The notes under the pieces are model-generated. The model did not search any database and was not told the DNA's origin. It saw only the letters and a program-made list of their open reading frames with translations. DNA of 27,171 bases from a virus, in IMG/VR virus record IMGVR_UViG_3300003702_000013, positions 1 through 27,171 of that record; one strand, given 5' to 3'. Position 1 is the first letter of the stretch. Each line of letters starts with the position of its first letter. This document shows positions 5,334 to 27,171 of the stretch, in pieces. Position numbers and translations under genes: made by a program.

Positions 5334-7558
5334 TTATTCCACTTTTCCCATGCCGGATCATCATAATCTGAATTATGGAATCGACCGCCACCAGCATTAG
5401 TACTTCTACCAGTAGCAGAAAATCCTAAATTAAATTCAAATTTTGGCCAAGCAAGTTTATCAACACCATCCGATTCAGATATAGTCATTTCTCCTCTTTT
5501 AACTGCAAAACTATCGTTCCCAAAGCCTTGCCATTCCACATTTTTATTATAAGCTCTATGACTCATAGCTTGATATAAGTAGTAATTCTCCATTCGTTTA
5601 GTCATCATAGCTTCTATTTCAGGACCTACTGGCAACCCTTCTTCTTTTCTAATCTTCATTATTCCAGCTACAGCAGATTCTATCTGTGAGGGCTTTCCTT
5701 TTTTCTTTTCATGCATTTTCTTTTCAATATAATCCATATAAGCAGGTTCTACACCTAACTCTGCCGCATCATTTTTTATTTCAGTTTTTAGTTTTTCTTG
5801 ATGTTCTGTTTCTTTTTTTACACTTTCTTTACTTGGTGGATTTTCTTCATAAACTTTCTCATTATCGTAAATTCCTTCGTGTTTTCGTGAAAGAGCGATT
5901 ACTTTTTCTCTAACCTCTTTAGCTGATAAATCTTTTACTTTTTTAAAACCACTCTTTTTTGCTTTAGCAGTTAATTGACTAGCACCGCCCGCTCCTTTTT
6001 TAACACTAATACCATCTATAGTAACTATCTTATTCTTTCCCTTACCACTTTGAGTAACTACAAGAACATCTACAGTTTCTAGAGTTGTACTTTCAGGTAA
6101 ATAAGCGGCTGAACCTTTTTCTGTACCCTTACCATCACCGTGCATTGTTTTTATAGAAGAATATACTTCGGCGATATTAGCAAAAGCTAATCCTAAAGTT
6201 TCATGACCTTCCATATCTACCATAATTTTATCTAATTCTTTTATCCACTCTTCAGGATTCTTATTAGGATCTTTTTCTGATAATGTTTTTATTCTATCAA
6301 TGATATTTTGTGCTTCGGAATCTACTGGCGGTGGATTATTAGGACCCTTTGGTACGCCGGGAATTACTCTCTTACCTAAACTGTCTAATCTATCAGCCAT
6401 TCCCTTTAATCCTTCTTTTATAATTGTTACTCTATTTTCAGCTGAATCTGGATTAACACCACTATCCATATCAATAAATTCCAATTCACCCTTTTCAATT
6501 AATGTACCATATTCTTCAAGCTGTGCATTATTTTGTTGTCTCTTCTTTCTTTCGGCATTTGATTCATTTTCTTTTTTTGGTACTCTCAATAATGTTAAAT
6601 TCTTTGATATTCTCACACTTTCAACTTTTCCTTCTTCATTTCTTTTTACAGGTTTCGGCTTTCCTTTTGGGTCTATCTTTTTTAGTTTTTTTACTTTTCT
6701 ATCTTCCCCAGCATATATTTGGTTGGCAGTAGATAATTTTCCAGCGTAAGTAGAAGTTCTTACAGTTCTAATTCCCTGTTGTTGCATCCAACTTTGCATA
6801 GCCTTAGTCTGTTTATTAGAACCAAAACCTTCCTTACCGCCTAACTTATCAGCAGGCATTCCTCTTAGTCTATTAAAATTACCTTCACCATCTCTACCTG
6901 GCTCTCTAGCAATATACATTCTCCACATTTTTGGACTACTTTCGCTTGGCTCAACTACAGCAACCCATTTGGATAGAAAAGCTTTTTCCTCTTCTGATAC
7001 TTCCTTACCGCCCCATATTTTTTCTAATATATCAGCACATTTTATATGAGCCGTGTGAGTTTCTTCGGAAATAACTTTTCCTTTCATACCCTTTTGTCTG
7101 CCGGGATCATCTATATCCGATCTCAAATAATATAATGCGGTGTCTTGCTTCTCCTTCAGAATTTGTTTTTGTTTTTCAGATAGTGGCTTTCCTTCATCAT
7201 CTTCTAACCCATCAAGAACTTTTTCTCTGTCAATAGGTTCATCACCTTTATCAACATCTTCAGGTTCTTCACCTTCCTCTTCTTCTTTACCACGAGTATA
7301 AACTTTTTTAGATCGTGGCGAACTATAAGTTTGTCCTTTATCAGCCTTCTTTCTAGCTTTTGCTAAAGTAGGTTCAACAACGTCAGCTTCTGCTTCCATC
7401 AAATTATTTAATAACTCAGCTCTCGCTTCACGATACCAACCAAAATCATTTAACACTCTTTCTAATATAATAACATGTGCACTATTCTTTGAATTTGGTT
7501 GACCATCATTTGTACGATAAGCCCATTCAACCAATATCTTATTTAAATCTGTAATCAT
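5330..7558 (-). CDS. Large charged protein of unknown function
   Basis: 742-aa protein, mostly hydrophilic and rich in K and E. The N-terminal ~55 residues (ITDLNKILVEWAYR...) look like a compact helical domain. Residues ~60-140 are an acidic/basic low-complexity linker (EEEEGEEPEDVDKGDE). A later segment has VDVLVVTQSGKGKNKIVTIDGISVKKGAGGASQL, written here in two parts: VDVLVVTQSGKGK and then NKIVTIDGISVKKGAGG. That part looks like a folded beta-rich domain. A Glu/Lys-rich helical region follows (SKESVKKETEHQEKLK). The C-terminal ~80 residues are aromatic and glycine-rich. No nuclease, protease or structural signature could be assigned with confidence. It overlaps the polymerase start by 4 bases upstream and the 137-aa gene by 4 bases downstream, tying it to the replication block, though a virion role is possible. 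Confidence 0.7.
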   Translation of the reverse strand: MITDLNKILVEWAYRTNDGQPNSKNSAHVIILERVLNDFGWYREARAELLNNLMEAEADVVEPTLAKARKKADKGQTYSSPRSKKVYTRGKEEEEGEEPEDVDKGDEPIDREKVLDGLEDDEGKPLSEKQKQILKEKQDTALYYLRSDIDDPGRQKGMKGKVISEETHTAHIKCADILEKIWGGKEVSEEEKAFLSKWVAVVEPSESSPKMWRMYIAREPGRDGEGNFNRLRGMPADKLGGKEGFGSNKQTKAMQSWMQQQGIRTVRTSTYAGKLSTANQIYAGEDRKVKKLKKIDPKGKPKPVKRNEEGKVESVRISKNLTLLRVPKKENESNAERKKRQQNNAQLEEYGTLIEKGELEFIDMDSGVNPDSAENRVTIIKEGLKGMADRLDSLGKRVIPGVPKGPNNPPPVDSEAQNIIDRIKTLSEKDPNKNPEEWIKELDKIMVDMEGHETLGLAFANIAEVYSSIKTMHGDGKGTEKGSAAYLPESTTLETVDVLVVTQSGKGKNKIVTIDGISVKKGAGGASQLTAKAKKSGFKKVKDLSAKEVREKVIALSRKHEGIYDNEKVYEENPPSKESVKKETEHQEKLKTEIKNDAAELGVEPAYMDYIEKKMHEKKKGKPSQIESAVAGIMKIRKEEGLPVGPEIEAMMTKRMENYYLYQAMSHRAYNKNVEWQGFGNDSFAVKRGEMTISESDGVDKLAWPKFEFNLGFSATGRSTNAGGGRFHNSDYDDPAWEKWNK

Positions 7559-8856
7559 TTAAACTTCCCCGTTATATCCTTCATTTTGTGATAATTCCAC
7601 CCCTTAGCAACTCTTACAGGATACTTGCCTTTCTGTTCAATGGTTTCTTTCATCACATATAAAAAATCTATCCCATCTGGCAAATAAAAATCAAATAAAA
7701 ATGAATCGTAGCTGTACAGAACTAATTTACTCTTATACGCTTCGAGTTTTGGTATTAGTTCTGTCAGCATTCTCATATTATTTTCAGTCTCCATCAGCTG
7801 AATAAGATAGTTAAATACCTTATTCTTATTCATATCAGATAGATTTTTCCTAAATATCTTCTTATTATAAATATCTGATACTATAAAATTCTCTGATTTG
7901 TAAGTATCCCAAATTTTATTTATATAATCATAAACTTTGCCGAAAAATGGATTCATTTGTACCACATCTATTGGAATATGACCATACAAATATTTAAATG
8001 ATAATGATTTACTCTTCTCATAATCAACACCATAAAATTTAGCCATATGTTTATGAACTGAACCGTTAGGGAAATTATAACCTACCACATCTCCAATCAA
8101 CCTCAAGTGATAAGCATCATAATCAAACTCTACTAACATTCCATCTTTACCAAATCTACTAATGAATTGCTTGCGGCTACCGTCTGATTTGTTGAGAGCA
8201 GCAAAGTTTAAACCACCAAATCTATTTGATGGGCGACCAGTAGATGTATAAAGATTGTATTCACTAAAAACCATACCTTTTGTGGTTTGTAATCCACTCT
8301 GTTCTATGTATTGAAGATTTTCAATGACTTCTTTATTATATACGTTACATACATCTTCAACTTCCTCTGTACCAAGAACACCTACTTTTAATCGTTCTAC
8401 CAGCTGCCTACACCACTCAATATGTTTCATTAATGGAATAACACAATTTATATCAGGTGTCTTATAATATATTCTGTAAAAGTATTCGTGCGCGTTAGTC
8501 ATCACATCATCAATCATCAATGGTTCATTTGAATTCATATAATAATTCATCTGAACATCATATACGTTTTCCCATTTAATAAAGTGAAGCAATTTCTTCT
8601 TATCGTAAGTGAACACATCTTTGGGTGTCCGAGTCATTGTGATATATTTGGATTTTAAATTGATAGCATCGGAGTGACGGAATGGTAAAACATATTCTTC
8701 AAGTTCTCCATCCAATAACTTAATATATAATAGACATAGCCTTGTATCCATTGGGTGCTTGTTCTTATCACATTGAATAGGAATGACAATAGAGTTATTC
8801 TCTTCAAACTCTACCATGAACTTTTCCCAATCTTTTTTATTTTCTACTATAACCAA
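7555..8856 (-). CDS. Divergent family A DNA polymerase without a working proofreading domain
   Basis: 433-aa polymerase recognised from the ordered palm/fingers motifs of E. coli Pol I. They are: STGRPSNRFGGLNF (205-218) for the TGR...NLQN motif; motif A VEFDYDAYHLR (242-252) with D245 at the catalytic Asp705 position; motif B SKSLSFKYLYG with K283, F287 and Y291 at the K758, F762 and Y766 positions; Q353 near the Q849 position; motif C SYDSFLF with D384 at Asp882. The catalytic aspartates are kept but neighbours differ: E710 becomes H250, R754 becomes Y279, and H-D-E becomes Y-D-S. Residues ~20-70 resemble the start of a 3'-5' exonuclease fold (VIPIQCD...YVLPF) without its D-x-E metal ligands. 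T4 uses family B gp43; family A polymerase is known in the distant T4 relative RM378. It may be the replicase or an accessory polymerase. Confidence 0.8.
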   Translation of the reverse strand: MVIVENKKDWEKFMVEFEENNSIVIPIQCDKNKHPMDTRLCLLYIKLLDGELEEYVLPFRHSDAINLKSKYITMTRTPKDVFTYDKKKLLHFIKWENVYDVQMNYYMNSNEPLMIDDVMTNAHEYFYRIYYKTPDINCVIPLMKHIEWCRQLVERLKVGVLGTEEVEDVCNVYNKEVIENLQYIEQSGLQTTKGMVFSEYNLYTSTGRPSNRFGGLNFAALNKSDGSRKQFISRFGKDGMLVEFDYDAYHLRLIGDVVGYNFPNGSVHKHMAKFYGVDYEKSKSLSFKYLYGHIPIDVVQMNPFFGKVYDYINKIWDTYKSENFIVSDIYNKKIFRKNLSDMNKNKVFNYLIQLMETENNMRMLTELIPKLEAYKSKLVLYSYDSFLFDFYLPDGIDFLYVMKETIEQKGKYPVRVAKGWNYHKMKDITGKFK

Positions 8857-16002: not shown

Positions 16003-17916
16003 CTACGATGATAATGCTAAGCCATCAACTCTACTAGTAAGTCGATTCATTAAAAATTCATATTGTACAAGCATCTGACCTAATAAACTTTCCATTTTTC
16101 TAGTATCTACATTTACACCTTCAGCAGGTATTGGAGCAACTAATTCTGGTCCTTTTTCTCCTACTATAACACCGCCATGCTGAAGTTCTGGTAATTTTCC
16201 TTTAGATTCTGTCATAAATCCTCCAATCATACCACCAGCTATCCCACCTGCGCCAGCTCCCATCGCAACAACACCTAAACCTTTAAGTAACTGCCTAACT
16301 CCTAGTTTTTGTAAACCAGGAATAGTCGATATCATAGCTGGAACTATTGCTGCAGCAAGTCCAGCAGCAGCTCCAAGTCCAATTCCTAACATTGCTGCCC
16401 CAGAAACAGTTTTCTTCGTAGCTTCATTTACACCTTCTTGGGCACCAATAATTTTACTCAGTTCAGCGACATCTGTTCCCAAAAGAGTAGATATAGCTTT
16501 TCTTTGTACAAAATCTAATTCAGATAAATTACCTACAACTCCAAGTTGCTTAACTACCTCTTGAAGTGCAAGATCAGTTTTACCAGTAAACATTAATTCT
16601 CTAGCTTTATCCATATTAATGTTTTTACCTAACAACATTGCTGCTTCCATCTCATTACCAATAGAAGTTTCAAAATCTAACAGTGACTCAGCAATTTTAT
16701 CTACCGTACTTAAATTTATACCTAATCTTTGTGCCTCTATTGCAGTTTTCTTCATATTATCACCTGTTGCATCAGAAAACTTAGCTATAAATTCTGCATT
16801 TTGAGCCATATCTTCAAAAACAGCTTTTGGAGCAACTCCAGCCATTCTAGCTAATTGTGCGGTAGACTTTGTTAATGCTAAGAACTGATCCATTGATGAA
16901 CCAGTAATACCTCTCTGAACTGCGAATAATTTAGCAGCAGACTCTGCAGTTAAACCATATCTCTTCTCTTGAATTTTTAAAGCTAATGCTTGCATCGTAG
17001 TCAAATTATTTACTGTACCAAGTTCGTCAGCAAAAGATCTAACAGCATCAGCATTGACAAGTAAAGCGCCACCCATACGAAACATATCTTTATAAGCTAG
17101 TCCAGTAGAATTAGCAAAAGAAATCATAGATACAGCCATTTTAGTAAGTACAGCCGCACCAAGAACAGCAACAGTTACCATACCTTTCATACTTATATTC
17201 AATCCTTTAAACCTCTGTCCCATACCGGTGACGATTCCATCTTGAGAATGATATGCACTTTGTATTTCTTCAGCTGTAAGTCCTATGCCACCCAAAGACT
17301 TTTGAACTTGATTCCAAGATTTTTTAGCATTTGAACCACCAGAAAGAAAATTACTCATTTTATCAGCTAAATTTGCATTTTCTACAAAACCTGAAGTAAA
17401 TCCTTCTACCATACCTGTAGCAAAATTATCTCCCAAACCAGTAAAATCGGCAACGTCTGCTAACAAATCGCCAACAATAGGAATTTGTCGAATAAAAGAA
17501 TCTATAGATTCAAATGGTTTTTTAGCTATAGCAACCATATCCTGAATTTGTTTATGTTGTTGTTGTTGTAATTTATTTATACTTTTTAAATGAGTTAGTT
17601 GTTTTACTAAAGTTTGATCAGTTCCCCTACGAGCTTTAGCTAATTTAGTAGCTACATCAAATGTTTTAAATTCTTCTGTACCTATGTTACTTACATTATC
17701 GAGTATATCTTTAGTTAAGTCTATAGATTCCTCATATAACTTTTTTTGATTCTTTCCATATTTAGTTGTAGCTTTATCTAATTTTTCAATATTACCCAAC
17801 GCGTTGAGTAAACCACCCGACAAAGAATCACCTATATCCTTTTGTAAGGTTTTAGCTAAATCTCTAGCCTCATTAACCGCCTCTGTGTATTGTTTTATAT
17901 TATCACTAACAGCCAT
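16003..17916 (-). CDS. 29: Tail tape measure protein (T4 gp29-like)
   Basis: 637-aa tape measure, the extended protein inside the tube that sets tail length and is ejected with DNA. Residues 1-135 are coiled-coil-like with regular hydrophobic repeats and Q-rich helix (LQQQQHKQIQ). A hydrophobic segment lies near 245-268 (VTVAVLGAAVLTKMAVSMIS). Two more lie near the C-terminal end: around 510-535 (GIGLGAAAGLAAAIVPAMI) and 555-575 (GAGAGGIAGGMIGGF). They are followed by the common tape-measure motif GGVIVGEKGPELV. T4 gp29 is 590 aa. It follows the tail assembly chaperone and an 82-aa gene, the usual chaperone-tape measure order. Start at ATG 17916 is 2 bases after the upstream stop. Confidence 0.85.
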   Translation of the reverse strand: MAVSDNIKQYTEAVNEARDLAKTLQKDIGDSLSGGLLNALGNIEKLDKATTKYGKNQKKLYEESIDLTKDILDNVSNIGTEEFKTFDVATKLAKARRGTDQTLVKQLTHLKSINKLQQQQHKQIQDMVAIAKKPFESIDSFIRQIPIVGDLLADVADFTGLGDNFATGMVEGFTSGFVENANLADKMSNFLSGGSNAKKSWNQVQKSLGGIGLTAEEIQSAYHSQDGIVTGMGQRFKGLNISMKGMVTVAVLGAAVLTKMAVSMISFANSTGLAYKDMFRMGGALLVNADAVRSFADELGTVNNLTTMQALALKIQEKRYGLTAESAAKLFAVQRGITGSSMDQFLALTKSTAQLARMAGVAPKAVFEDMAQNAEFIAKFSDATGDNMKKTAIEAQRLGINLSTVDKIAESLLDFETSIGNEMEAAMLLGKNINMDKARELMFTGKTDLALQEVVKQLGVVGNLSELDFVQRKAISTLLGTDVAELSKIIGAQEGVNEATKKTVSGAAMLGIGLGAAAGLAAAIVPAMISTIPGLQKLGVRQLLKGLGVVAMGAGAGGIAGGMIGGFMTESKGKLPELQHGGVIVGEKGPELVAPIPAEGVNVDTRKMESLLGQMLVQYEFLMNRLTSRVDGLALSS

Positions 17917-18234: not shown

Positions 18235-18462
18235 TTATCTTTTACTTATTGCAGGTCTGGATATAGATTTTTTAGATTTTTTAGATTGTTCTTCAATTAT
18301 CTTTTTCTCAGTTTCTTTTTCTCTTACTAATCGTTTTAAATAAAACTTTCTTAGATAAATTGGAAGATTATAAGTGTCTCTAAAGGTAAATGAACCATTA
18401 GAGTAATATAATAAATTAAATATTTCTTCGTGAATTTCTGGTTTATGTTCAGGAACTAGGCC
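18235..18462 (-). CDS. Frameshift extension of the tail assembly chaperone (GT-like part)
   Basis: 75 codons open in the +1 frame relative to the upstream gene, beginning GLVPEHKPEIHEEIFNLLYY and continuing SNGSFTFRDTYNLPIYLRKF, then YLKRL and a K/E-rich end (KSKKSISRPAISKR). It has no start codon or ribosome site of its own. It opens precisely at the T7 run where the upstream frame ends five codons later. The content (YY-GSFTF-D-YNLPIYLR-FYL) looks like the second domain of tail assembly chaperones, which is made by ribosomal frameshifting in lambda, Mu and many myophages. Joined to the upstream product (248 residues to the second Phe) it would give 323 aa. Alternatively one T is a sequencing error and the gene is simply continuous. 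Confidence 0.75.
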   Translation of the reverse strand, partial: GLVPEHKPEIHEEIFNLLYYSNGSFTFRDTYNLPIYLRKFYLKRLVREKETEKKIIEEQSKKSKKSISRPAISKR

Positions 18463-19207
18463 AAAAAAACCCAGGCGTCATCGGGACGCCTATACTCCTT
18501 TCTGTACCATCTGAAAATACAACATCAGCAATCATATCTATATCAGGCGTCATCTTAGCAAATTCTGTACGAAAATAGAATGCGTCTCTCGATAAAAATT
18601 CATTATCAACGAAATTATTTATAACTTGTTTTTTATTATCCCCATCAACTGACAAAATTGCTTTCTTTAACCTTGTAGTAATATCTGGATCAACATCAGA
18701 ATTTATTTTTTTCAAAGATTTAATTTCAGCATCAATAATTCTTTCATCTTTCTGACTAAGTAGTTTATAAGTAACAACTCTTTTAGATGTAGGTAATGTC
18801 ATCTCAAATTCGTTTACACCTTTAGTGCAATTAGAAAAATCAACTTTCTTATCTTTAAGCTTTGTTAAATCTACAGTAACTTCTTCTAACTCATCTGTAT
18901 CTGGATGTGGATATTCAATTACATAATTTTTACCATATCCCAATATACGAGAAGCAACCATTATTGCATTTTTATCACCAATCAGTATATCATCGTATTT
19001 GATTTTCTTATCAACAATTAATGCTTGTAATAATTTATCAAATACAATTCCCTTTTTGATGAGATTTGAAGATGTTAAAATATCTTCTTCTTTTGCGGTC
19101 ATATATTTCAATTCCACTTCTCCACTTGAAAGTGGATTAGCACTTTCATAAAACCAACCCTTGGATGGCAAACTAACCATCTCAGTAGGAAAATTATACT
19201 CAGCCAT
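18449..19207 (-). CDS. Tail assembly chaperone / gp26-like protein, frame-0 product
   Basis: 252-aa protein between the tube and tape measure genes. It opens EMVSLPSKGWFY, then GEVELKYMTAKEEDIL, GDKNAIMVASRILGYG and QKDERIIDAEIKSLKK, ending VPMTPGFFWPSS. This is the pattern of the T4 gp26/gp51-type proteins that in T4-related tails occupy the place of the lambda G chaperone. Such proteins bind the tape measure during tail assembly and are usually absent from the virion. The frame ends five codons after seven T residues, while the +1 frame continues for 75 residues. Two products, short and long, would match the G/GT system. Start at 19207 follows AGGAG; a 39-base gap separates it from the holin-like gene. 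Equivalence to gp26 versus gp51 is not certain. Confidence 0.75.
   Translation of the reverse strand: MAEYNFPTEMVSLPSKGWFYESANPLSSGEVELKYMTAKEEDILTSSNLIKKGIVFDKLLQALIVDKKIKYDDILIGDKNAIMVASRILGYGKNYVIEYPHPDTDELEEVTVDLTKLKDKKVDFSNCTKGVNEFEMTLPTSKRVVTYKLLSQKDERIIDAEIKSLKKINSDVDPDITTRLKKAILSVDGDNKKQVINNFVDNEFLSRDAFYFRTEFAKMTPDIDMIADVVFSDGTERSIGVPMTPGFFWPSS
18463..18469 (-). other. T7 slippery run in the tail assembly chaperone
   Basis: Coding strand reads CCT GGG TTT TTT TGG CCT in frame 0. A +1 shift (or -2) with Phe-tRNA on TTT re-pairs perfectly and continues GGC CTA GTT. A -1 shift would give TTG GCC TAG and stop at once. So only +1 or -2 gives the extension. Confidence 0.7.
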
Positions 19208-19465: not shown

Positions 19466-19954
19466 TTAGAATTGTAAGATAGCGTAATCGTAACGTAGTG
19501 TTAATGTAATCTCAGCAGGTTCACTCACACTCCAATCCATATCACCAAAATTAGCAGATTGAATCATAGCGCCTTTCAAAGTCCATTCCTCAACTTTGTC
19601 TCCTACTGGACCTAACACATTAAATGTAACGTCTTTTTTATAGAAGTCTGAATACCCATCACGACCAGTTACAGATTCTTTATGTAATCTAACCCATTCC
19701 ATAACAGCTTGTGCGCCAGATGGTACAATTGGATCATAAAGAGTAATATCTAATGTATCCCAAGCACCTTTACCCTTAACATATCTTTTTACATTGATAT
19801 GATCTAATTCAATTTCTTCAAAAGTAATTTGAGGCCTACCAGCTGTTCTTATTAAATATGCAGGTACACCTTCAATATACATAATAAACCGATTTTTCGT
19901 TTTCGGTTCAAACGGAGTGAACATTATCTCCGAAGGATCGATTAAATCTGGCAT
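19466..19954 (-). CDS. 19: Tail tube protein (T4 gp19-like)
   Basis: 162-aa major tube subunit, the size of T4 gp19 (163 aa). Typical features: NRFIMYIEGVPAYLIRTAGRP, here near residues 21-41, then FEEIELDHINVKRYVKG, TLDITLYDPI, AVMEWVRLH and a C-terminal PAEITLTLRYDYAILQF. Hexameric rings of it stack to make the DNA channel inside the sheath. It follows the sheath gene after a terminator and a copy of the intergenic motif, so it probably has its own promoter and is made in excess of the upstream transcript. Start follows AGGAG. Confidence 0.92.
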   Translation of the reverse strand: MPDLIDPSEIMFTPFEPKTKNRFIMYIEGVPAYLIRTAGRPQITFEEIELDHINVKRYVKGKGAWDTLDITLYDPIVPSGAQAVMEWVRLHKESVTGRDGYSDFYKKDVTFNVLGPVGDKVEEWTLKGAMIQSANFGDMDWSVSEPAEITLTLRYDYAILQF

Positions 19955-20118: not shown

Positions 20119-22614
20119 TTACTCTGGAAATGCAGCACCCGTTGGGAGTACTGTGAAGTCCAGAACTATGAACTCAGCCGTTCTAGTAGGTTGAATGAAG
20201 ATTTGACCAACCAACTGATTTCTGTCAATAACATCAGGTGTATTGTTCGAATCATCCATTACAATTTTAAATGCAGACAAACCACTATTAGCTTGTACTG
20301 ATTCTAAGAACGGATTAACTATATTCATGAATCTAGCTCTCGTAGATGAATCATTTTGTTCAAATACTAAGAATCTACTTGAAGAAGCAATAAATTTCTT
20401 CAATTTGATTAATAGTCTACGAACATTAATTCTATCCAAAGCCGATGGTTTAGATTGTAGTGTTTTTTGTCCAAATACTACCACTCCTTGACCAGGAAAT
20501 GAAGCAATCGGATTAACTCTACCCTCATACAATGTATCTCTATCTGTATGAGTTAACTTTTTCTTAGTCAACCTAACATTAGTTAAACCACCACGAGTTA
20601 AACCAGCAGGCGCGAACCATTCATGTGCCACTCTATCTGTAAAAGCAATTACGCCTGGAATCACAACTGAGGGCGGAACCCAAACTTGCCCCGTTCCTGC
20701 AGGATCATCCATTTTAACCCACGGATAATATGTAGCCACATAATTAGTGTCCAAATTAACAATATTATCAACTGCTGTTGCAACATTATCATCAATATCA
20801 GCACTATCCATTACATAAAATGCATCAGCTCTAGCTTCTATTTTATCAATAGCATGATTAGTTACTACTGGATGATGTTTATGTATCACACCAGGAGTTA
20901 CCAACATATTAATATCATATTCATCTGGATTAGCTACAGCATTAATAGCCCGTTTATAAGCCACAGAACCACTTGCTGTAGTCGTTGAACAATCAAATCC
21001 CATCGTATTAGTAGACGAAATTGAAGTGCCTGTATATTTTACAGCCGCTGGATTATTACCATCAAATCCATATTGAAAAGGAAGAGCAAATTTAAGCTGT
21101 TGAACAGACTGAGATATCGTTAACGTCTGAGATGAGATAGCAAAATTCGTATACCTACTATACTCAGAAGACGCAGTTGTACCCCAACCATACATATCTT
21201 CAAGACTCATACTAACATTACTTCCAACCGTTTCATTATAAGGAACAGGCGACAAATATGCTAAATTAGTAGCCAATTCATCTTGATTATATTTAGGATT
21301 TATTTTAAACCCATATGGCAATTCCTCTTTATAAATTGAAGATTCACCAGTTCCTCCATCGTATGTTTGAGTATAAGCAAAAGACGCTGTTGGTACATAA
21401 TTTGATGAAACAATTACATCATATACTGCAGCAAAACCCATTGGTTGTAGCTCTTTATTAGCTCTAAAAGTCTTTTCTTTATGATCTCCTATACGAATAT
21501 ATCTTGAAAGATTTGGATAATCACCATATGAAGTAATTTCACCGTCATTATTAACAGTTTGAAACATATCTCCAATCACTTTAACTAAATAATTCGGTGA
21601 ATCTGGATCCATATTCAAATTACTCCAATTTTCCAATAAATTACCACTTGTATCGTATAAAGCCATACCAAAATCAGCAAAATCTGGACTTGAATTAGAA
21701 CCTTGCGGTCTTTTAATATCTCTAACAACAACATAATGTCCATTAGTTTGAGTACCATCCGCTCTCGTATAAATTCTAAATAAATTAGTTGTAGTACCAC
21801 CAATTTTTTGTGAATGAACATACGGTGTTCTACCAGATGATACACTACTATTCCCAGTAATACTACTAATATAATTTCCATCAGTTGTACTTACAGTTTC
21901 AGCTCCAGTACTAAAATCATAATTATCAGAACTACGTTCAGTAAATACTTTGCTTGTAGCAGATAATATTCCGGAAGCAAAAGATGCACTTACACTACTT
22001 CTAAAAAATTTATACATATAAGCGGGAGCCTCAGTAGAACCAATCAACTGTGCATTAGGATCCGTAGGCATTACTTTTAAAATGTAATTTGAAGCAGCAT
22101 TTTCTAATCCAACAGCAGAACCCTCTTCTACTAATGTTATACTAGAAACACTAGCACTTGCATTTGATCCATCAATATTTAATGTAAAATTTGATGCAGA
22201 TGCAGGATATGCTACAGAACCACTTATATCTCCTGCGCCATTACTGTTGTTAACCGCTGGCAAGAAAGTTGCAACAACCATTTTTCCTTCTGCGCCCAAA
22301 TGTGTTGGTGAACCACTTACTATTAAATTAAATCCAGTAACTTTATATCCACCAAGATACCCAACTTTTACTATTGTTACAGTTCCTGCGGAACTTAAAT
22401 ATTCTTTTACAGTGTAAGGTGTGTAATAAGCCGAATTATAAGATCCAAAAGTCTTTTCAAATTCCTCAAAACTTCTTACTATAGTAGGTACAAAAGAAGG
22501 ACCTTTTTCAGTTGGTCCTATAATTGCTGCACCTATTTCAGAAATTGCTTGTGGAAGAAAAGATAAATCTCTTTCACGCGTAAATACACCCGGACTTACT
22601 ATTCTCTCTGCCAT
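20119..22614 (-). CDS. 18: Tail sheath protein (T4 gp18-like), enlarged
   Basis: 831-aa contractile sheath subunit. The N-terminus is diagnostic: MAERIVSPGVFTRERDLSF, AAIIGPTEKGPSFVPTIV and FEEFEKTFGS. The C-terminal part has the conserved sheath core: TDRVAHEWFAPAGLTRGGL, LYEGRVNPIASFPGQGVVVF, LDRINVRRLLIKLKKFI, ASSSRFLVFEQND, then VGQIFIQPTRTAEFIVLDF. T4 gp18 is 659 aa. The extra length is in the middle, a serine/threonine/glycine-rich stretch (about 110-330) that would sit on the outside of the tail. Start follows AAGGAG. It is the first gene of its own unit: an intergenic motif lies upstream and a strong terminator downstream. Confidence 0.95.
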   Translation of the reverse strand: MAERIVSPGVFTRERDLSFLPQAISEIGAAIIGPTEKGPSFVPTIVRSFEEFEKTFGSYNSAYYTPYTVKEYLSSAGTVTIVKVGYLGGYKVTGFNLIVSGSPTHLGAEGKMVVATFLPAVNNSNGAGDISGSVAYPASASNFTLNIDGSNASASVSSITLVEEGSAVGLENAASNYILKVMPTDPNAQLIGSTEAPAYMYKFFRSSVSASFASGILSATSKVFTERSSDNYDFSTGAETVSTTDGNYISSITGNSSVSSGRTPYVHSQKIGGTTTNLFRIYTRADGTQTNGHYVVVRDIKRPQGSNSSPDFADFGMALYDTSGNLLENWSNLNMDPDSPNYLVKVIGDMFQTVNNDGEITSYGDYPNLSRYIRIGDHKEKTFRANKELQPMGFAAVYDVIVSSNYVPTASFAYTQTYDGGTGESSIYKEELPYGFKINPKYNQDELATNLAYLSPVPYNETVGSNVSMSLEDMYGWGTTASSEYSRYTNFAISSQTLTISQSVQQLKFALPFQYGFDGNNPAAVKYTGTSISSTNTMGFDCSTTTASGSVAYKRAINAVANPDEYDINMLVTPGVIHKHHPVVTNHAIDKIEARADAFYVMDSADIDDNVATAVDNIVNLDTNYVATYYPWVKMDDPAGTGQVWVPPSVVIPGVIAFTDRVAHEWFAPAGLTRGGLTNVRLTKKKLTHTDRDTLYEGRVNPIASFPGQGVVVFGQKTLQSKPSALDRINVRRLLIKLKKFIASSSRFLVFEQNDSSTRARFMNIVNPFLESVQANSGLSAFKIVMDDSNNTPDVIDRNQLVGQIFIQPTRTAEFIVLDFTVLPTGAAFPE

Positions 22615-24090: not shown

Positions 24091-27000
24091 TTACTTTTTC
24101 AATTCTTCAATTTCTTTTTGTTGAGCTTCTACTTTTGTAGAAAGTTCTTGTACTGCTTTAATTAGTGGAATTACAAACATTTCTCTTGATAAATCTTGAG
24201 AACCATCGCTATGCTCTGACCATCCTGTAAATTCAGAATGATTATATTTATCCATTAACTCTTTAACTTCTTGAGCCATCATTCCATACATTAAAACATC
24301 AGTATCTTTTTTATTTTCTTCGTTATAATGTCTTGTTAATTCCTTTGGAACTTCATTAGATGGTTTCCACTTATAGGTTTTAGTTTTTAATTCATTAATA
24401 AAATCAAGACCTAAATCATTATCATTAATACTTGTTTTTAATCTTTTATCGGAAGATTGCGCCCAGTTAGCATTAGAAGTAAAAGTATTTTGAACAATGT
24501 TACTTGCCTTACCAAACTGAAAAGTATTATCAGCATCAGTGTTAAAACCCATACCAATAGCAATTCTGTTACCAGCATCTGCGGCATCAGTATTCAGGTT
24601 ACCGCCAATTAATATATTATTATCGCCTGTTGTAATTGCCCCACCTACAGTTTCTCCCATCGCAGTATTTTGAATACCAGTTGTTACCGCTGGCAAACAC
24701 CCAGCACCCACAGCAGTATTATTATTACCATCACCTCCACTACCACCAGTAATAGGCTCCAGACAATGATAACCAATCGCAGTATTACCTGAATGGGTAG
24801 AAGCAAGTCTTAATGCTTGAAATCCTAATACAGTATTATTATCAGCAGTTGTAAGAGCTTCACCTGCGCTATAACCGATACATATATTTCCTGTTCCGTC
24901 CGTAATTGCGGTGCCAGCTTGATAACCAATAGCAACAGTCCCGTCAGCATCATCATGATTAAGGGCTCCAAGAGCACCATATCCTATAGCTACACATTCG
25001 TCTTGTGTTGTTGCGGCATCTAATGCTTGATAACCCATTACAACATTATTATCTCCAGTAGTTAAAGCAACCGCCGCATTATTACCGACAGCGCAATTTT
25101 GAACACCTGTAGTTAAACCACTCAATGAGGCATAGCCAACAGCAGTATTATAATTACAAGCATTCATTGCACCATTCAAAGCATAGGCACCAAGACCCAC
25201 ATTACCAGTTGAGAGTGTACCAGTCCATGTTCCACTTCCCGCATAAAGTCCGAGTAATGTATTATTAGTATGAGCCAATGCACCCATTGCATCACCAGCA
25301 TAATTTCCTATTGCTATATTTCCAGCGGCTGAATCATGGTTAAGATTAGCCATTGCATCATAACCAATAGCGATATTATCAGATTCAGCACCACTTGCGG
25401 CACTAAAACAAAGATTAGCGCCAATCGCTATGTTCCTTGTACCTGTAACAAGAGCATCCATCGTTGAAACACCAATGGCAATATTATAACTACCACCTGT
25501 AATGCCATAGCCAGTACCATAGCCAAGACAAACATTCTGGTCTCCCGTAGTTAGGTTATATAAAGAATAATTACCAACCCCTAAATTAGCGGCGGAATCA
25601 TCCATTGCGGCTTGCATTGTATAATGACCAATAGCCGTATTATTTTCACTCGTAGTACCAGTCCATGCACCACCTAAAGAATTAGTGCCCATAGCAATAT
25701 TAGTATTACCAGTTGGTACACTCGTAGTACCATCCATCGAACCACTTCCTATTGCAATATTGTGATTACCAGTAGTATGTCCTTTCAATGCACCAGCACC
25801 GATTGCGACGTTTCCTGTGCCAGTTGTGAGGGCTGTGAGTGCTTGATGTCCAACAGCAACAGTTCCTGAGACGGTAGTCGTTAAAACACCATCTAAAGTT
25901 TGTTGACCTATAGCTATACAGTTGTTTACATCAGCACTTGTCCAGTTTCCATTCATAGAATACAATCCAATAGCAACATTACTAGAGGCTTGCGTAGTTG
26001 CTTTATCCATAGCCCCATATCCTATAACAACATTTGAATCGGCAGTCGTTAAATCATTGCCAGCAACATGCCCTAATATAACATTATAATTTGCAGTAGT
26101 CATAGCAGCCCCAGCTTGATAACCAATAGCAACATTCCCATCACCAGATGTGAGGGCGGTGAGGGCTTCGTATCCGATTGCAATAGTGCCTGTCTGAGCA
26201 TTTGTGTTTGTTGCATCCAACGCATGATAACCTATTGCAATATTGCCAAGTAACACTTTATCAGCCGAACCAAAAGAACCACCAATTAAAGCGTTACTGC
26301 CTATAGCAATATTACCATCTGCGGAGGCAGTCCCAGAACCTTCATCAATATTTCCCAAGGCGGCTTGTCCAATAGCTATATTATCCGATTCAGTCCTTGC
26401 GGCATCATTAAAAGCGGCATCACCAAGCACAGTATTATTACCACCTGTAGTAAGTAATGATGCGGCAGTATATCCAATAACTACATTATTTGCACCAGAT
26501 GTGAGGGCGTTGAGAGCTTGATATCCGATAGCAACTGTGCCATCACTAACATTACTGCCTCCAGTAGTGCTAATAGCAGCACCAGCCGACTTACCAAGTA
26601 AAGTAAGTTTCTTTGCCGTTGTCACTGCCACTCCAGCATATGAACCAACCAGTACATTATCACTCGAAGCACCTTGCATAACATAACCAGATTGAAATCC
26701 CACACAAACATTATTATTCACTGTAGTACCATGCGCTCCTGCATTTCCACCAAGTGCTTTGTATCCAAGAGCTGTGTTTTGGTCTCCAGTAGTTAATCCG
26801 TATGTTCCTTGATTCCCAACGTTACTTCCGATTAAAGTATTAGCCACCCCTTCAGTCATTAATCCACCAGCAAGATATCCTATAGCTACACCTCCAGTCG
26901 TATCTACACTATTAGCGGCAGAGAATGCTTTATAACCTATCGCTACTGTACCAGTTTGAGCTGATTGATATGTAGCATCGAGGGCTTGATAACCAATAGC

Positions 27001-27171
27001 AATATTACCAAGTAAACTTTCCGAACTACCAAAAACATCTCCAAGTAACGCATTTGTACCAATAGCAATATTGCCATCTGCAAGAGCAGAGCCTCCTTCA
27101 TCAACAGCACCCATTGCATTTCTGCCTATAACGACATTATCTGATTCAGTTCCATCTGCGGCATCAAGTGC
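24091..27171 (-). CDS. Tail fibre with YadA-like repeat shaft and C-terminal S74 intramolecular chaperone (5' part missing)
   Basis: At least 1026 codons; the frame is open through the right edge, so the ATG at 27114 is internal and the true start is outside. About 850 residues are imperfect repeats of the form (N/T)(I/V)AIG-xx-AL-xxx-TG, e.g. NIAIGYQAL and NTAIGYHCL. This is the left-handed beta-roll of YadA-type trimeric adhesin heads. The C-terminus is an S74 (endosialidase-type) chaperone starting at SDKRLK (codon at 24453-24451), with the Ser and Lys five apart as in the self-cleaving dyad. Then come KTYKWKPSNE, MYGMMAQEVKEL and a terminal coiled coil (VQELSTKVEAQQKEIEELKK). The chaperone folds the trimer and cuts itself off. 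Receptor binding is inferred. Followed by a glycosyltransferase gene. Confidence 0.88.
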   Translation of the reverse strand, partial: ALDAADGTESDNVVIGRNAMGAVDEGGSALADGNIAIGTNALLGDVFGSSESLLGNIAIGYQALDATYQSAQTGTVAIGYKAFSAANSVDTTGGVAIGYLAGGLMTEGVANTLIGSNVGNQGTYGLTTGDQNTALGYKALGGNAGAHGTTVNNNVCVGFQSGYVMQGASSDNVLVGSYAGVAVTTAKKLTLLGKSAGAAISTTGGSNVSDGTVAIGYQALNALTSGANNVVIGYTAASLLTTGGNNTVLGDAAFNDAARTESDNIAIGQAALGNIDEGSGTASADGNIAIGSNALIGGSFGSADKVLLGNIAIGYHALDATNTNAQTGTIAIGYEALTALTSGDGNVAIGYQAGAAMTTANYNVILGHVAGNDLTTADSNVVIGYGAMDKATTQASSNVAIGLYSMNGNWTSADVNNCIAIGQQTLDGVLTTTVSGTVAVGHQALTALTTGTGNVAIGAGALKGHTTGNHNIAIGSGSMDGTTSVPTGNTNIAMGTNSLGGAWTGTTSENNTAIGHYTMQAAMDDSAANLGVGNYSLYNLTTGDQNVCLGYGTGYGITGGSYNIAIGVSTMDALVTGTRNIAIGANLCFSAASGAESDNIAIGYDAMANLNHDSAAGNIAIGNYAGDAMGALAHTNNTLLGLYAGSGTWTGTLSTGNVGLGAYALNGAMNACNYNTAVGYASLSGLTTGVQNCAVGNNAAVALTTGDNNVVMGYQALDAATTQDECVAIGYGALGALNHDDADGTVAIGYQAGTAITDGTGNICIGYSAGEALTTADNNTVLGFQALRLASTHSGNTAIGYHCLEPITGGSGGDGNNNTAVGAGCLPAVTTGIQNTAMGETVGGAITTGDNNILIGGNLNTDAADAGNRIAIGMGFNTDADNTFQFGKASNIVQNTFTSNANWAQSSDKRLKTSINDNDLGLDFINELKTKTYKWKPSNEVPKELTRHYNEENKKDTDVLMYGMMAQEVKELMDKYNHSEFTGWSEHSDGSQDLSREMFVIPLIKAVQELSTKVEAQQKEIEELKK
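26340..27171 (-). repeat. Long-period duplication in the fibre gene (756-bp offset)
   Basis: Codons for ESDN at 27136-27147 and at 26380-26391 begin two copies of the same module, exactly 756 bp (252 codons) apart. Each copy continues in parallel: A-G--DEG, then ADGNIAIG-NAL-G--FGS, LGNIAIGY-ALDAT, AQTGT-AIGY. This shows a higher-order duplication above the ~14-residue repeat; the copies have diverged at many codons. Confidence 0.7.

Follow-up and report, generated by a model that had tools for sequence, protein, structure and literature searches.

We analysed a 27,171-nucleotide stretch of viral DNA, i.e., positions 1 to 27,171 of the IMG/VR virus record IMGVR_UViG_3300003702_000013 (the window, which spans the 27,171 bases of the record), in which a single gene on the minus strand would encode a T4-family tail assembly chaperone in two forms. 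The short form, a TAC-N-like protein of 252 amino acids defined by its open reading frame (ORF), a profile search and an AlphaFold model, is read in the zero frame at 18449..19207 (-). Its 3' end reads ATG ACG CCT GGG TTT TTT TGG CCT AGT TCC TGA, with the stop at 18451-18449. An earlier sequence-only reading of the window had correctly noted a stop just after the TGG, but put it five codons away, whereas it is the fourth codon after TGG. The run of seven T residues (T7) within GGG TTT TTT TGG CCT, at 18463..18469 (-), is the predicted shift site, judged from the sequence and from the motifs of relatives. Read one base further downstream, the sequence stays open from 18477 until a stop at 18237-18235 and contributes 75 residues past the shift, for a predicted fusion of 323 amino acids. 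This extension, at 18235..18462 (-) with its stop, would be the C-terminal domain (C-domain) of the long form, as judged from its open frame, the selection acting on it and a three-helix model. In the window sequence the extension frame can be reached from the zero frame by a shift of either +1 or -2. A -1 shift runs at once into TAG at 18458-18456, as the sequence-only reading had stated, and a frame check together with a start-codon scan, which found no ATG, GTG or TTG in the first 45 extension codons, bore out its description of a 75-residue open stretch in the +1 frame that lacks a start of its own.

This arrangement was compared across 187 loci, some of them near-identical, of which 185 keep it. 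All 80 IMG/VR relatives (56-96% identity) had the same architecture, with TTT TTT TGG CCT (or TTT CTT / TTT TTA TGG), a zero-frame stop a few codons past the motif and, where the contig was long enough, a +1 frame open for ~60-75 codons. Later scans added ~100 further relatives. The arrangement is shared by the named phages Flavobacterium immuto, Microcystis Mel-JY01, Listeria LIS04, Streptococcus GXN1, Bacillus SP-15 and Rhodothermus RM378 (the last found with a hand-written consensus query, used for that purpose only), and by a 484-kb uncultured phage; no relatives were found in prokaryote genome contigs. The extension lay in the +1 frame in all 185 relatives keeping the arrangement, cultured isolates included. 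The sequence-only reading had proposed comparing T-run length and frame among homologues, and had named a continuous frame with no slippery run, or a run of six T residues, as the observation that would speak against it; no such homologue occurred among the 185. From these sequences the system seems to be common to a large set of phages related to T4, most of them aquatic.

The extension is open far beyond chance: over 44 representatives and 45 codons there were no stops in the +1 frame, compared with 186 and 105 in the other two frames. Mismatches by codon position (9184/4580/18630) fell mostly at third positions, and the ratio of nonsynonymous to synonymous polymorphism (pN/pS) in the +1 frame was 0.22, indicating purifying selection. 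The coherent coding content previously ascribed to this frame was thus confirmed. Conservation of the extension, which has a YNMPIYLR-like core, starts at the shift site itself (FGL).

Thirteen variants of the shift motif occurred across the 187 loci. In all 185 relatives, codon 1 or 2 of the motif is UUU for Phe with U or C as the next base, so that a tRNA-Phe in the P site can re-pair one base forward. The Phe codon used would vary, since TTT CTA and TTT TTA demand the first and TTC TTT the second. A -2 ribosomal shift, as in phage Mu, would reach the same frame, and the window's own sequence, in which two-base backward re-pairing on the T7 run is possible, would by itself permit it. However, such re-pairing of the Phe-tRNA is impossible at TTTCTTTGG, TTCTTTTGG, TTTCTATGG, TTTTTATGG, TTTCTATTC and TTCTTTCGT (59/185 in all), where the extension frame is unchanged and no T run exceeds 5. 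We consider a -2 shift very unlikely. The sequence-only reading had offered a "+1 (or -2)" shift on Phe codons, and only the first of these directions stood up. Because UUU-U/C is universal among the 185, while 59 of them allow neither a -2 shift nor a T run above 5, the sequences favour +1 ribosomal frameshifting for the family, rather than -2 shifting or transcriptional slippage.

Immediately upstream of the shift site lies a predicted RNA hairpin of 8 bp with the loop CCGAT (18472..18492 (-); -12 kcal/mol), identified by folding and covariation, which ends 2 nt before the T run; its G+C-rich core of 6 bp ends 4 nt before it. Across the family the hairpin ends 2-6 nt before the site, many relatives having 6 nt between stem and T run. 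When folding at -30..-1 was compared with synonymous randomisation of the same peptide, the mean z was -2.72 (t about -12 to -15; -14.7 with 34 representatives), and no other window of the gene approached this signal. Covariation is directly visible in the stem, where pairing is kept in 121/126 cells and shuffling gave at most 114. The stem occurs in three registers, which differ in the position of the 5' arm, whereas the distance from the 3' arm to the site hardly changes. A Shine-Dalgarno-like (SD-like) AAGGAG lies 25 nt upstream of the T run (18495..18500 (-)), and was picked out by enrichment of anti-SD pairing. Relative to synonymous randomisation, this pairing at -42..-22 had mean z values of -2.1 and -1.5 in two large clades, and was hardly seen in the stretches preceding it. 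In relatives, the usual end points of the motif are -31 and -26 to -24; 54/187 loci have none, and the hairpin is situated between the motif (end 24-31 nt upstream) and the shift site. On this sequence evidence, the hairpin and the SD-like motif are conserved beyond the needs of the peptide. In structured T4 ribosome binding sites a hairpin shortens spacing, and the SD-like motif may act by pausing, by forming a second duplex or through hairpin-shortened spacing. The signal for a downstream stimulatory structure was weak (mean z -0.5 to -0.6 in two large clades), and an Rfam search of the region gave no match.

A scan for terminators on the minus strand picked exactly the hairpin and T7, and if these formed an intrinsic transcription terminator, conservation of the hairpin would have nothing to do with recoding. 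We regard this as most unlikely: the hairpin is retained in relatives with TTTCTTT (L062, L080), the 6-nt spacing noted above separates stem from T run in many others, and the stem is inside a coding region whose extension is under selection. RNA polymerase slippage on T7, present in the window and in 121 other relatives, would yield both forms from a mixed mRNA population, but deserves little credence when 59/185 relatives have the same arrangement with no T run longer than 5. Some annotations (WWT39326.1; immuto gp232; XacN1 ORF316) treat the C-domain as an independently initiated, separate protein, which is true in one lineage, L103/L108, where an ATG lies in the -1 frame ahead of the domain. 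As a general account it is hardly credible, for most members, the window included, lack ATG, GTG or TTG in the first 45 extension codons, and conservation begins right at the shift site. The +1 reading also sets right annotations in which the C-domain is split or left out. Homopolymers are error-prone, and the sequence-only reading had held out a one-base insertion in T7 as a competing explanation; given the same frame relation in independent contigs, cultured isolates and sites with no homopolymer, the chance of a sequencing or assembly error is negligible, and the frame arrangement read in the window is real.

Some relatives have switched to other arrangements. The jumbo phages XacN1 (L090), Atu_ph07 (L091) and LR756511 (L087; 595 kb) carry T TTT TTT / T TTT TTC followed by an extension in the -1 frame that is homologous to the +1 extension (hhalign probability 93%, E 2.5e-7). 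Where annotations include these -1-frame extensions, they give them as small ORFs in their own right. The C-domain of L103 and L108 is an independent ORF starting at an ATG of its own, and the former shift motif reads TTC TTG TAT and TTC CTT TGG, respectively. These two are nested firmly within the +1 immuto-like group in the tree and are, as far as the sequences tell, a natural loss of recoding. We are unsure of the order of the +1 and -1 states, because the tree of the N-domain has long branches. In T4 itself the products come from separate genes, 26 and 51, on opposite strands. The idea that a T4-like phage keeps tail chaperone recoding, put forward from the window alone, would thus hold for the window and the 185 relatives, but not for T4. 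Phage 0305phi8-36 has been described as a two-gene form with no frameshift (PMC2147016).

As to the protein, the short form matched phrog_150, baseplate hub, in a profile search (E=1.1e-7), and PF12322, T4_baseplate, at E=2e-4 and 21.5 bits, which is under the gathering cut-off of 24.5. The short form and the extension were folded separately. The AlphaFold model of the short form had a pLDDT (the model's own confidence score) of 91 and matched 52 viral structures at E<=0.001, many of them named as T4-like baseplate hub assembly proteins; matches to T4-like baseplate hub proteins had E values of about 1e-10 to 1e-18. Fold searches of the PDB gave no significant match, the HK97 chaperone 2ob9 appearing at a probability of 0.23. 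The extension was modelled as three helices (pLDDT 83). A few extension members gave weak profile matches, to phrog_634 (E 0.02), DUF6760 (E 0.03) and the tail assembly chaperone family phrog_32580 (E 0.03); by sequence, a relationship of the extension with the C-terminus of gp51 and with DUF6760 is suggestive only. DUF6760 occurs beside PF12322-type proteins in contractile injection systems, and systems with DUF6760 may encode this chaperone pair as split genes. By analogy, a tail assembly chaperone role can be inferred for both forms.

The neighbouring genes fit the position originally given, between tube and tape measure. Upstream are a tail tube protein (19466..19954 (-); phrog_4542, E=4.9e-29) and a tail sheath protein (20119..22614 (-); phrog_23, E=3.1e-67). 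Downstream is a probable tape measure protein (16003..17916 (-)), assigned from its position and a GEKGPELVAPI stretch near its C-terminus; it had no family match, and immuto has an annotated tape measure at the corresponding position. Tube and sheath genes upstream and a long tail or tape measure gene downstream were also found in immuto, Mel-JY01, LIS04 and SP-15. There was no second copy of the chaperone within the 27-kb record, which is an incomplete genome. The window also encodes a UvsX-like recombinase and a DnaB-like helicase. At 24091-27171 (-) lies a very long protein with GNIAIGxxAL repeats and a C-terminus resembling an intramolecular chaperone; it is likely a tail fibre and extends past the window edge. 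A 433-aa protein at 7555-8856 (-) resembles, on visual inspection, a compact family A DNA polymerase, an enzyme unusual in T4-type phages.

In the mechanism we propose, most ribosomes would read the zero frame as far as its stop, three codons past the TGG, and make the 252-aa short form. Some would instead slip one base forward with tRNA-Phe in the P site on a UUU followed by U, which may be either Phe codon in UUU UUU UGG, and the slipped tRNA would re-pair on UUU, leading into the +1 frame and to the 323-aa form with its helical C-terminal domain. Refolding of the hairpin at the mRNA exit side of the ribosome would push this forward slippage and also suppress the tendency of U7 to slip in the -1 direction, probably assisted by the upstream SD-like motif. 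In the lambda G/GT class, the tape measure is bound by the short form and the tube by the extension; by this analogy, tape measure and tail tube would be connected through the long form, and the proportion in which the two forms are made would be important. The overlapping frames, the shift motif, the covariation of the hairpin and the selection on the extension are seen directly in the sequences; from them we infer that frameshifting takes place and how efficiently, what the two upstream elements do, and that the protein acts as a chaperone.

At the +1 sites known from bacteria, the A site usually holds a stop or a starved codon. Several points weigh against our interpretation: the A site here would hold UUU or UGG, neither a stop nor evidently starved; in the immuto-like clade the hairpin is weak (mean z -0.7 to -1.0), and the Streptococcus and Rhodothermus phages have none, so that it is not essential everywhere; and comparison of the extension with the C-terminus of T4 gp51 gave an hhalign probability of just 7-18%. 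With these included, we put at roughly 0.87 the probability that the gene encodes a T4-family tail assembly chaperone in two forms through a +1 slip on UUU-pyrimidine. The odds are about even for a larger proposal, namely that this is a natural +1 cassette, in which a conserved upstream hairpin, preceded by the SD-like motif, drives the UUU-pyrimidine slip with no stop or rare codon in the A site, and that the family has switched between +1, -1, a separate gene and, in T4, gene duplication to obtain the same two products. To our knowledge, upstream elements that stimulate +1 shifting are rare in nature, and a +1 shift driven by an upstream hairpin with no stop or rare A-site codon is otherwise known only from engineered constructs. 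The SD-like motif, hairpin and UUU-Y would make up a compact natural signal, and with many natural shift-site variants, losses and a change of direction, what sets the direction of frameshifting becomes directly testable.

Recoding of tail chaperones is itself well known, as -1 in lambda, -2 in Mu and a predicted +1 in HSTV-2. The locus resembles the lambda G/GT class (Xu, Hendrix and Duda 2004) in its position between tail tube and tape measure and in having, next to a short form, a form extended at its C-terminus from an overlapping downstream frame, conserved and joined out of frame at a slippery run of identical bases. It differs in that the predicted shift is +1, the chaperone domain is the bigger one of the T4 family, and the stimulators are upstream, not downstream. 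The lambda-class -1 shift on a heptamer (-2 in Mu) is not that of the window, and -1 was seen only in XacN1, Atu_ph07 and LR756511. T4 gp26/gp51 belong to the same fold family by profile and structure search, and the extension weakly resembles the gp51 C-terminus and phrog_634, but T4 has two genes on opposite strands whereas the window has one gene with predicted recoding. Vladimirov and colleagues (Virology, 2022) reportedly identified tail chaperone genes in T4-like phages and argued for a mechanism other than frameshifting. A paper citing that work refers to poly-T -1 signals known in T4-like chaperone genes (PMC12846349), and a review describes the tail chaperone frameshift as conserved in long-tailed phages except T4 (PMC5009743). 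The tail chaperone of the haloarchaeal myovirus HSTV-2 has a predicted +1 frameshift (PMC5009743); the described likeness is that of a myovirus tail chaperone with a predicted +1, in an archaeal host.

The closest parallels to the slip itself lie outside tail genes. Slippage in the +1 direction on UUU_C is established for influenza PA-X, whose authors predicted a wider class (PMC3498833). Influenza A PA-X (UCC_UUU_CGU) shares the P-site slip on UUU followed by a pyrimidine, but the window involves bacterial ribosomes, a U7 context, an upstream hairpin and an unrelated protein. The site in Streptococcus phage GXN1 (L086), UUC UUU CGU, is near PA-X UCC UUU CGU. The RF2 gene (prfB) likewise has a forward slip of the P-site tRNA on NUU_U and an upstream duplex, and 37 relatives have CUU UGG against prfB CUU UGA; in the window, a hairpin lies beside the site in place of the prfB SD at 3 nt, and the product is a structural protein with no autoregulation. 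An upstream hairpin next to the site has been found to mimic an internal SD, stimulating +1 and attenuating -1 shifting, in vitro with 70S ribosomes and in yeast (PMC6321510), and the SARS coronavirus attenuator has been noted as comparable, with the 5' stem-loop of T4 gene 60 described as a motor (PMC5009743). Set beside these systems, a +1 shift with an upstream hairpin in a T4-like chaperone appears to be new within a known class.
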